Assembly: GCA_900317515.1 (NCBI GenBank)
Contig: ONHA01000007.1
Location: 43,655-107,654 of the forward strand
DNA: 64,000 nt
Direction: 5' to 3'
From: an uncultured Eubacteriales bacterium
GTDB taxonomy: Bacteria > Bacillota > Clostridia > Lachnospirales > Lachnospiraceae
The notes below the pieces were generated by a model. That model saw nothing but the letters and a program-made list of their open reading frames with translations, searched no databases and was not told the origin of the DNA. Position numbers and translations under genes: made by a program. Numbering within the stretch: the first letter of the stretch is position 1; the number at the start of each line of letters is the position of its first letter. This document shows positions 9,531 to 47,757 of the stretch, in pieces.

Positions 9531-9725
9531 ATGATATCGCTGCGGATTGCTCCGTGCTTCGCTTTGCTCGCACTCTCGCAATCCTGCAAAAACTCATCAA
9601 TCGCCCCGCTTGTTCCACGCCGCGTGGCTTTTTGATTCGTTTTTGTTAGCGTCTCGCAAGTCTGTGCACTGATTCTCGTGCGAGCACGAGTCGTGTGCAC
9701 AGACTTGGAGACCAGGCGATATCAT
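9531..9725 (-). mobile_element. 195-bp MITE-like element in the glmS leader
   Basis: This fills most of the 318-bp gap between glmS and asnB. It is bounded by perfect 10-bp terminal inverted repeats, ATGATATCGC at 9531-9540 and GCGATATCAT at 9716-9725. Inside are a 13-bp perfect stem CAAGTCTGTGCAC (9657-9669 with 9695-9707) extended by GTCTC/GAGAC and holding an inner CTCGTGC/GCACGAG stem, a GCCACG/CGTGG hairpin, and a GGATTGC/GCAATCC hairpin. It has no plausible gene. One end abuts the T-run of the attenuator terminator, so it looks inserted between attenuator and glmS, or else is a structured leader. No target-site duplication was identified. Confidence 0.6.
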
Positions 9726-15517: not shown

Positions 15518-15540
15518 CCGTTTTTTACATAAAATTTTTG

Positions 15541-15709
15541 CAACTATTCAGCACCCACCATTCGCAGCCGCTTGAAGCGGCTTGCTCATGTCGACGGTCA
15601 GAGGCGTATCGCGCCTTGGCCGCCACATAAAAAAGCATGGTTCCTGCTCGAAACGCAAGCGTTTCGCCCTTCAAACCACACCTTTTTATGTGGTGCTGAA
15701 CAGTTACAA
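15541..15709 (-). repeat. variable-stem structured element, copy A
   Basis: Ends AACTATTCAGCACC (15542-15555) and GGTGCTGAACAGTT (15692-15705) are complementary with one G-T mismatch. Within, read on the minus strand, a long hairpin has outer arm CCACATAAAAAG/CTTTTTATGTGG (perfect 12 bp) and apex CGAAACGC-TT-GCGTTTCG. Next come AGGCG/CGCCT and AGCCGCT/AGCGGCT hairpins joined by CTCTGACCG and CATGAGCA. Copy B (47571-47735) has the same ends, apex and 3' block but wholly different arm bases that still pair. The element begins about 20 bp after the sstT stop, in sstT orientation. Together with the glnN leader it accounts for the 383-bp gap 15342-15724. Confidence 0.8.
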
Positions 15710-15724
15710 ATTTTTAAAAGATTC

Positions 15725-29342: not shown

Positions 29343-32300
29343 ATGCCCAGAAGAACCGATATAAAGAAAATACTGGTGATCGGCTCCGGCCCCATCGTCA
29401 TCGGACAGGCGGCGGAGTTTGACTATGCGGGGACCCAGGCCTGCCTGGCGCTCAGAGAGGAAGGGTATGAGGTCGTTTTGTGCAACTCGAACCCCGCTAC
29501 GATCATGACGGACAGGTCTGTCGCCGACAGGGTCTACATGGAGCCGCTGACGCTGGAATTCGTCGCGCGTGTCATCCGAACCGAGCGGCCGGACGCGATC
29601 CTGCCGGGAATCGGGGGTCAGACCGGTCTCAACCTGGCTATGCAGCTGGAGAAGAAGGGAATCCTCAAAGAGTGCGGCTGCGAGCTTCTGGGCACGGATT
29701 CGGCCAGCATCGAGATGGCGGAGGACCGGGAGAAATTCCGCGACCTCTGCGTGCGATTGGGGGAGCCTGTACTGCCCTCGATCGTGGTGCATTCTCTCTC
29801 CGAGGGGCGGAAGGCGGCGGAGGAGATCGGCTACCCGGTGGTGCTCAGACCCGCCTTCACGCTCGGCGGCACCGGCGGGGGCTTTGCGGACAGCGAGGGA
29901 GAGCTTGAGGAGCTCCTGGCAGCGGGACTTGATCTCTCGCCGGTGGGTGAAGTCCTCGTGGAGAAGAGCGTCAGGGGTTACAAGGAGATCGAATATGAGG
30001 TGATCCGGGACTCCGCCGACACAGCCATCACCGTCTGCAACATGGAAAATCTGGATCCGGTCGGGATCCACACCGGAGACTCGATCGTGGTGTGCCCGTC
30101 CCAGACGCTGACGGACAGGGAGTACCATATGCTCCGGGACAGCGCTCTGAAGCTCATCCGGGCCCTTCGGGTGGAAGGAGGCTGCAACGTGCAGTTTGCG
30201 CTGGATCCGAAATCATTTCGGTATTATCTCATCGAGGTCAACCCCAGAGTTTCGAGGTCCTCGGCGCTGGCCTCCAAGGCCTCCGGCTACCCGATCGCAC
30301 GGGTCTCCGCCAAGATCGGCGTCGGCTTTACGCTGGACGAGATTCCGCTTGCAAACACGCCGGCCTCATTTGAGCCGGCCCTCGATTACGTTGTGACGAA
30401 GATGGCGCGGTTCCCGTTTGACAAATTCATGGACGCGGATCAGACGCTGGGCACCCAGATGAAGGCGACCGGCGAGACCATGAGCGTCGGGCGGACCTTC
30501 GAGGAAAGCCTTCTTAAGGCCGTGCGGTCGCTCGAGAGCGGGACGATCCACCTGCATCTTGCGAAATTCGATGAGGAGAGCGACGAAAAGCTCCGGGAGC
30601 ACGCAAGGAGAGGATCAGCGGAGAGGATCTACGCGGTGGCGGAGCTCATCCGCCGCGGGACAGATCCGGGGGAGATTGCGGATCTCACCGGGATCGACCG
30701 GTTTTTCCTCGACAAAATCGGAAATATTATAGAAGAGGAGCGGGCTCTCAGCGCACACAGGGGGGACACCGGCGAGCTTCGGCGCGCGAAGCGGATGGGA
30801 TTTTCGGACATCGCAATCGCGGACCTCTGGGGGATGAGCGAGGAGGTGGTGTATGCGCTTCGGAAGGCGGAGGGCATTTTCCCTGTATACAAGATGATCG
30901 ACACATGCGCCTCGGAGTTTGAGAGCTATGTGCCGTATTTCTATTCGACCTACGAGGGGGAAAATGAATCCCTCGTGAAAGCCGGCCCAAAAGTCATCGT
31001 GCTCGGGGCTGGCCCGATCCGGATCGGGCAGGGCGTCGAGTTTGACTACTCCACGGTGCACGCGGTGCAGACGATCCGGGACGCGGGCTACGAGGCCATC
31101 GTGATCAACAACAACCCGGAGACCGTGTCGACGGATTACACGACGGCGAACAAGCTCTATTTTGAGCCGCTGTGCGTCGAGGATGTGATGAACATCATCG
31201 AGCTGGAGAAGCCGGACGGGGTCATCGCGACGCTGGGCGGCCAGACCGCGGTGAACCTGGCGGAGCCGCTTGCAGCCCGGGGCGTCCGGCTCATCGGGAC
31301 CGACTGCGAGGCGATCCGCCGCGCGGAGGACCGCGATCTCTTTGAGAAGCTTCTCATCAGGCTGGGAATTCCGGAACCGGTCGGCACCGCGGTGACCGAT
31401 ATCGAGGAGGGAATCGCCGCGGCGGCCGCCATCGGGTATCCGGTGCTGGTGCGCCCGAGCTTCGTTCTGGGCGGCCGCGCGATGCAGATCGTCTCGAAGG
31501 AGAAGGAACTGCGCCATTATCTTAAGACGGCGGTTGAGATCGACGAGGATAAGCCGGTGCTTGTGGACCGCTACATCAGCGGCAAGGAGCTCGAGGTGGA
31601 TGCGGTTTCGGACGGGGAGGAGGTTTTCATTCCCGGAATCATGGAACTGGTCGAGCGGACGGGAGTTCACTCCGGGGACTCCATCAGCGTATATCCGACC
31701 TTCAGCGTCTCGGAGCGGGTGCTTGAGAAAATCCGCGATTACACGAGGCGGCTGGGGCTTGGGATCGGTATAAAGGGGCTCTTCAATATCCAGTTCATCG
31801 TGGACAGGAATGAGGAGGTTTACATAATTGAAGTAAACCCGAGGTCTTCCCGGACGGTGCCCTTCCTCTCCAAGGCGACCGGGTTTGCGCTGCCGGACAT
31901 GGCGGCGAGGGTGAGCCTCGGGATGTCTCTGAGGGACCAGGGAATCACGGATCTCACACCCGCGCCGGGCGGGAAATGGTTTGTGAAGGTGCCTGTGTTT
32001 TCATTTTCAAAGCTTGCGGGGATGGACGCCTACCTCTCGCCGGAGATGAAATCCACCGGGGAGGCCATCGGTTACGACATGAAGCTTTCGCGGGCGATGT
32101 ACAAGGCGCTCATCGCCTCGGGGATCCGGATGCAGAATTACGGGACGGTGATCTTTACGCTGGCGGACGAGGACAAGGAGGAGGCGCTGCCGCTCGCGAA
32201 ACGCTTCTACGACATGGGGTTCAACATCGAGGCGACCACGATGACCGCGGAGTACATGCGGGAGCATGGGCTTAGGACGAGGCTTCTTCGGAAGCCGAGC

Positions 32301-47550: not shown

Positions 47551-47570
47551 GTGATAATGGGGGTTCATTT

Positions 47571-47735
47571 TGTAACTGTTCAGCACCCCGGAAAGAGACC
47601 GTCTTGCGGGTCGGGACGCTTGCGTTTCGACCCGCAAGACGGTCTCTTTTCCGGGGCGGGCAAGGCGCGAAGCGCCTCTGACCGCCTGCATGAGCAAGCC
47701 GCTTTTAGCGGCTGCGAATGGGGGCTGAATAGTTA
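47571..47735 (+). repeat. variable-stem structured element, copy B
   Basis: The left end TGTAACTGTTCAGCACC and right end GGGGCTGAATAGTTA are largely complementary. The variable hairpin 47586-47656 has 28 paired positions (CCCCGGAAAGAGACCG... against ...CGGTCTCTTTTCCGGGG, one bulged T). Its apex, ACGC-TT-GCGT, is shared with copy A. The 3' block has AGGCG-CGAAG-CGCCT, CTCTGACCG, CATGAGCA and AGCCGCT-TTT-AGCGGCT, and is nearly identical to copy A. The element begins about 20 bp after the degV stop, in gene orientation. Confidence 0.82.
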
Positions 47736-47757
47736 TTCATTTTTTAAAAAAAGAGGA

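Follow-up and report, generated by a model that had tools for sequence, protein, structure and literature searches.

The EFAR repeat of enterococci is reportedly ~170 bp long and carries stem-loops. A passage of PMC3733652 names EFAR as a MITE, and bcr1 of Bacillus cereus is portrayed, in portions of PMC3446304 and PMC2267715, as a MITE-like repeat (147-167 bp in a table) with a conserved predicted structure. IS66 elements, according to a section of PMC11946415, have 8-bp repeats and ends beginning GTAAGCG, and the consensus of the orphan Clostridiales-1 RNA (RF01699, an RNA listed in PMC2864571) combines an outer stem with a long variable arm bearing GCUUGC and an aUGAGcA..UgCGAAu hairpin. 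In open papers, PMC2229807 and PMC10969869 among them, we recognised no description of the element reported here, although its absence from them is not proven. Our best reading, to which we give a probability of about 0.6, is that it is an IS66-mobilised, non-autonomous element of ~165 bp with a strand-specific structured cargo, a mobile relative of Clostridiales-1 RNA that is selected for its shape.

The window (the whole 64,000-nucleotide stretch of DNA that was analysed) holds two copies, A and B, both present as first described, with the termini, the ACGC-TT-GCGT apex, two small hairpins and unlike long arms. On what we term the arm-first strand (minus for copy A, plus for copy B), the order of parts is a terminal repeat of the GTAACTRTTCAGCACC type, the long arm (apex GCTTGC), hairpin H2, hairpin H1 and a second terminal repeat. 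The ends of both copies were set from their perfect 8-bp duplications, as follows:

15540..15707, minus strand: copy A, whole element (arm-first strand = minus; R1 165.0 bits, E 5.8e-44; R2 116.4 bits)
15532..15539, no strand: 8-bp target duplication AAATTTTT, one side of copy A, 8/8 identical (read from the sequence)
15708..15715, no strand: 8-bp target duplication AAATTTTT, other side of copy A (read from the sequence)
15692..15707, minus strand: copy A terminal repeat GTAACTGTTCAGCACC, 5' end of the arm-first strand (sequence comparison)
15623..15693, minus strand: copy A long variable arm hairpin, apex GCTTGC (inverted-repeat search and fold)
15592..15624, minus strand: copy A hairpin H2, GGCGGCCAAGG..CUCUGACCG (folds; limits by eye)
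15558..15591, minus strand: copy A hairpin H1 with ATGAGCA..TGCGAAT (sequence, alignment and R1; limits by eye)
15540..15555, minus strand: copy A terminal repeat, 3' end of the arm-first strand; the plus strand reads GCAACTATTCAGCACC
47572..47735, plus strand: copy B, whole element (R1 155.7 bits, E 2.3e-41; the R1 match ends one base later)
47564..47571, no strand: 8-bp target duplication TTCATTTT, left of copy B (read from the sequence)
47736..47743, no strand: 8-bp target duplication TTCATTTT, right of copy B (read from the sequence)
47586..47656, plus strand: copy B long arm hairpin, a nearly perfect palindrome (fold of the whole copy, -118.9 kcal/mol; limits by eye)
47657..47687, plus strand: copy B hairpin H2 (fold and R1; limits by eye)
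47688..47722, plus strand: copy B hairpin H1 with ATGAGCA..TGCGAAT (sequence and R1; limits by eye)

Copy B lacks the terminal C of its right end, and because of this lost base its duplication reached only 5/8 in the automatic flank scoring. Two models were used for searches: R1, whose training set included copies A and B, and R2, built from copies of other genera only, which R1 had found and aligned; R2 recovers A and B at E values of 8.9e-27 and 6.9e-23. Arm-first RNA fold energies are -90.4 (A) and -118.9 (B) kcal/mol (z of -9.9 and -13.4 against dinucleotide shuffles), and the opposite strand of copy A gives -69.0 kcal/mol (z -6.9). The sequence, the model scores and these z values all confirm the original prediction of conserved ends, apex and two small hairpins around unlike long arms. 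A weak R1 match elsewhere in the window (31373-31478, plus strand; 9.2 bits, E 0.98) is probably due to chance.

The element is widespread. Its own genome (G000) contains 36 DNA matches and 52 R1 rows, which a hand count resolved into 34 distinct places (five of these within two tandem arrays), the remaining 18 rows being opposite-strand echoes of places already counted. R1 matches occur in 18 of the 42 genomes of the genus, with at least 68 in one congener (G016), in which the DNA query gave no match among the best 13 of 57 candidates. Across the family, at least 26 of 299 genomes have a match (at most 9 candidates were scored per genome), and a distant copy lies in an Oribacterium MAG (L085; R2 E 3.1e-14). 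The model search of the genome and of Lachnospiraceae called for at the outset thus returned many copies instead of only two, with the fold conserved in relatives. Pattern matches in Marinobacter (2), Methylomonas, Erythrobacteraceae, Chthonomonadaceae and Oscillospiraceae were dismissed as chance after inspection of ~450 bases around each; viral contigs gave 0 matches to one exact pattern, and plasmids and phages gave no match to copy B in a distant-mode search.

Several copies are rearranged or adjoin other features. In tandem arrays, units of ~81 bp consist of the H1-H2 block, the last being one full copy with its arm (G000:C43:51280-51633; L020, L021, L025), or units of ~62 bp of the H1 block adjoin a full copy (G000:C25:69046-69395; L018, L027, L030); similar partial duplications flank copies L165 and L170 of G016. 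A G016-type copy, 91% identical, lies within the window's own genome (G000:C63:2453-2617; L242) and may reflect transfer between species. Very short derivatives keep both ends with the interior deleted (L028, 76 bp; G000:C21:9167-9210, 44 bp; L045, 68 bp). Many contigs of G031 carry a terminal repeat no more than ~40-90 bases from an end, as if assembly had broken at abundant copies. A ZMP/ZTP riboswitch (L269, 1667-1760) adjoins one copy, and a T-box-like match just below its gathering score (L029, 1715-1953) adjoins another.

That A and B are non-autonomous transposable elements is well supported at the level of sequence by their ends of ~16 bp and perfect 8-bp duplications, as the original prediction had proposed among its possibilities. 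When flank lengths from 4 to 12 were tried, identity between the two flanks was maximal at 8 bp (0.586 vs 0.363 with swapped partners), with perfect 8-bp flanks in 7 of 35 rows, a set that includes a few spurious pairings. A chance origin of the terminal repeat was rejected, the reversed-pattern control giving 0 in 42 genomes. A region of G009 orthologous to one G016 insertion aligns without the element and is a probable empty site, although the alignment has diverged. The likely mobiliser is suggested by another congener (G027), which has four intact 1,967-bp elements, each with a 483-amino-acid PF03050 transposase and ends GTAACTGTTCAGAACCCC; these ends (GTAACTGTTCAGAACC) differ by one base from those of the 165-bp element (15/16 shared), and perfect 8-bp duplications were seen by eye at three of the four (L067, L071 and L073, not L069). 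From the shared ends and the duplication length, we infer that the mobilising transposase is of the IS66 family; such a transposase would move any DNA bearing these ends. No PF03050 match was found in the window's own genome (a draft of 79 contigs), nor a PF03050 transposase in G016, and the G027 transposase had matches in 4 of 42 genus genomes, near-identical only in G027 itself and at most 38% elsewhere, leaving 38 of the 42 with no L067-like transposase; these absences are not final, because the genomes are drafts. In other genera, transposase pieces 83-96% alike occur in two of the 24 element-bearing genomes (G118 and G324), with matching ends at three of the four loci concerned (L313, L315 and L316, with 1, 2 and 0 mismatches; none at L314). 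Two genomes also carry MITEs of other families that share this type of end (G019, at L217, L225 and L233; G001, at L210 and L218; ~123 and ~132 bp), which have 8-bp duplications by eye and interiors unrelated to the 165-bp element.

Between these ends the fold is kept while its letters are exchanged. When 34 copies were aligned by sequence, both sides had changed in 39 of 55 pairs, 94.0% of cells were paired (82.4% when shuffled) and the covariation score was 0.385 (0.164 shuffled, 0.056-0.092 slid). Copies outside model building, from the own genus and other genera (61 sense rows in 38 clusters of <80% identity), were 92.8% paired against 61.8% over 200 shuffles (maximum 64.1%), and 19 copies of other genera (alignment A4) were 91.2% paired against 59.5% shuffled and 38-48% slid; both results lean towards the R1 structure, to which their alignments had been fitted. 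Mobility and covariation were both demonstrated, then, by comparing sequences. The stem had been described as fully exchanged, which holds for A against B alone and not in general: their arms are the two ends of a series linked by other copies in the same genome, with paired changes between the intermediates. In ten copies with decayed outer ends (a class that, in alignment A2, includes the ortholog pair L009 and L038; L026 and L050, whose ends are truncated, were left out of A2), the outer stem was 48.7% paired against 86.5%, and the arms still 93.0% against 93.7%. Same-site copies in sister genomes were mostly no better conserved than their flanks (element 0.951, flanks 0.935 and 0.944 for L009/L038; element 0.932, flanks 0.959 and 0.955 for L034/L035; element 0.988-1.0, flanks 0.992-1.0 for four further pairs). 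Two other pairs gave 0.912 for the element vs 0.767 and 0.732 for the flanks (L032/L033, with duplications that differ between the two) and 0.988 vs 0.872 and 0.758 (L031/L043, both in one genome).

The fold is also strand-specific. With the structure derived from Watson-Crick pairs only to avoid circularity (61 of 66 pairs used), G.U exceeded A.C in the arm (63 vs 21), with near parity in the terminal stem (22:20) and in H1/H2 (12:13). An alignment-free count of isolated mismatches in 68 arms gave 48 G.T, 18 A.C and 56 others (from 77 rows, less the duplicates L038, L043, L189a-c and L195, the poor L194, and L182 and L183, whose arms are too short). The excess weakened with clustering: G.T:A.C was 37:11 in 44 clusters of <90% identity (p 0.0002), 22:5 in 27 clusters of <80% (p 0.0015; 24 other mismatches, as frequent), 13:4 when these 27 were counted by rows (p 0.049) and 11:3 in 15 clusters of <70% (p 0.057). 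With RNA parameters, the arm-first strand was more stable than its complement in 57 of the 64 clusters formed by 135 copies. In H1, a tandem G.A motif, strictly defined with two outer and four inner pairs, occurred in 34 of 64 clusters, with 0 on the other strand and a mean of 1.45 in shuffled halves, and AUGAGCA..UGCGAAU, each side being allowed one mismatch, in 28 of 64, again with 0 on the other strand; it is present in A and B. A looser G.A pattern (59/64 clusters) was dropped, its control having matched 20 of 64 shuffled halves. The strand evidence reverses the order of parts that a retron-like reading, weighed from general knowledge, would need, and that reading was set aside for this reason.

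The strand is better settled than the chemistry. Shape is probably selected on one strand as RNA, the molecule in which the fold would act; the predicted arm loops, GCTTGC in 48 of 68 arms, make the apex mostly G[CUUG]C, and tetraloops of the CUUG type are classic in RNA. Alternatively, one strand could be under selection for its fold as single-stranded DNA, such as in a transposition or replication intermediate, a reading that we consider unlikely even though it would suit strand specificity without bias relative to genes. DNA energies prefer the arm-first strand as well (60/64 clusters), and C(GNA)G loops, found in 38 of 61 H2 and 36 of 64 H1 hairpins, are of the type that part of PMC4686876 ascribes to extraordinarily stable DNA mini-hairpins. 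Against it, the 8-bp duplications and IS66 ends would point to double-stranded cut-and-join transposition, and intermediates score with an Rfam RNA model, although that model also rests on DNA sequence.

Another reading, quite improbable in our judgement, is that the element persists because it serves the genes ahead of it as a transcription terminator or at the 3' end of their mRNA. Copies A and B do follow a stop codon in the same orientation, as the original prediction stated, at 17 and 21 nt (L199, with a run of N, was left out of this stop-codon-distance set). In general, the distance to gene 3' ends is short (median 20 nt; up to 30 nt in 56 of 105) and that to 5' ends long (median 89 nt; up to 30 nt in 24 of 117). 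These contexts are open reading frames scored by codon usage, not annotation, and such closeness to stop codons is also expected from harm avoidance. TTTT occurs in the 3' arms of 35 of 62 clusters with the apex found (AAAA in 13), yet the arms of L009, L020 and L046 have, by eye, no run of four T; L003 and L007 stand, by eye, behind terminator-like hairpins. Genome-wide, the shared orientation did not hold: relative to tandem genes there were 38 co-oriented and 33 anti-oriented copies (p 0.64; of 135 copies, 100 were usable, an ORF call crossed 17, one side had no gene call in 13, and 5 were too far). From a first copy set, the arm-first strand had seemed to be that of the mRNA (24:11, p 0.041; 18:9, p 0.12, with stricter gene calls), a reading abandoned because the bias vanished with 135 copies. 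A cis role in the upstream gene's mRNA is consequently not supported in general. The originally proposed structured RNA gains from the strand-specific covarying fold and from intermediates that match Clostridiales-1 RNA, and its processing from mRNA 3' ends is weakened because the orientation bias is missing.

The least probable of these explanations is an ordinary MITE in which arm-to-arm template switching during replication preserves the pairing of the long palindromes, without selection on the folded product. Perfect arms in L185 (28 bp) and L193 (27 bp) fit this explanation, as does copy B, nearly perfect, whose arm pairs at 29 of 34 positions against 25-26 of 35 in its sisters. However, the perfect run from the apex has a median of 3 bp (125 copies), the 3' arm of copy B is not clearly more changed than the 5' arm (29/35 vs 28-29/32 identical to the sisters), and template switching alone does not predict the arm-only G.U excess, the strand-specific tandem G.A or the family-wide fold. 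The barcode-like element with rewritten arms that had also been entertained is not needed, the arms forming a continuum with paired changes. Under the selected-shape reading that we prefer, the cargo would comprise the terminal stem, the long arm with its mostly G[CUUG]C apex, H2, and H1 with the tandem G.A motif; stems would change by paired substitutions, perhaps also when one arm is copied from its partner, and since selection would act on shape, such paired drift could go on until any likeness between two copies is lost to view, with the apex, the G.A motif and the ends staying as they are. That a host protein binds H1 is a plausible guess.

The window also contains a candidate relative of the element:

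9535..9721, minus strand: Clostridiales-1 RNA (RF01699), proposed distant relative (87.2 bits, gathering 48)

By eye, this RNA sits just upstream of a reading frame starting MCGIVGFTG. The element and RF01699 have in common the outer stem, the GCUUGC arm apex and the AUGAGCA..UGCGAAU hairpin. Among loci of other genera found with R1, 11 of 20 matched RF01699 in register on the same strand, the best at 43.8 bits (E 2.3e-6), below the gathering score of 48; this locus (L254) matches R1 as well (57.4 bits) and still has IS66-like ends. Two further sets gave RF01699 matches in register at 0 of 3 loci (two of the own genus) and 0 of 18 (16 of the own genus), and copies A and B were not listed in the Rfam search of the window. 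Sub-gathering miRNA matches of Rfam models at the tested loci were put down to chance similarity of long hairpins. R2 gave no match to the window's Clostridiales-1 RNA with default filters and 25.4 bits over 451 bases with filters off (arm in register, H1 not); R1 gave 14.0 bits. Because the tested own-genus copies lack an RF01699 match, the element is a relative of the family and not formally a member. More tentatively, at somewhat less than even odds, Clostridiales-1 may be one branch of a family-wide group of mobile, strand-specific structured elements in Lachnospiraceae, in which shape is inherited and every long stem is replaceable, the apex, tandem G.A motif and IS66 ends enable folding and moving, and members without ends are settled descendants kept by their hosts.

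If true, an orphan RNA family would acquire a genomic context in the form of a transposable element and its likely mobiliser, and through this a first testable idea of its purpose. The many copies that keep the fold with their stem letters replaced also constitute a natural experiment in which selection on RNA, single-stranded DNA and double-stranded ends can be told apart within one element. Compared with known systems, the element differs from Clostridiales-1 RNA, in which a further hairpin lies on the 3' side and nothing corresponds to H2; the passage of PMC2864571 on that RNA makes no mention of mobility. It resembles an IS66-family MITE in its 8-bp duplication, its ends starting GTAA and the ends that it has in common with a PF03050 element, and is unlike one in that these ends read GTAACTRTTCAG rather than the GTAAGCG of the IS66 section cited above, in a genome without a found transposase. 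EFAR is alike in length and stem-loops, and is likened here by description, not by sequence. Likened by description too is bcr1, which, in the portions cited at the outset, is likewise MITE-like, has a conserved predicted structure and often lies in UTRs or operon gaps.
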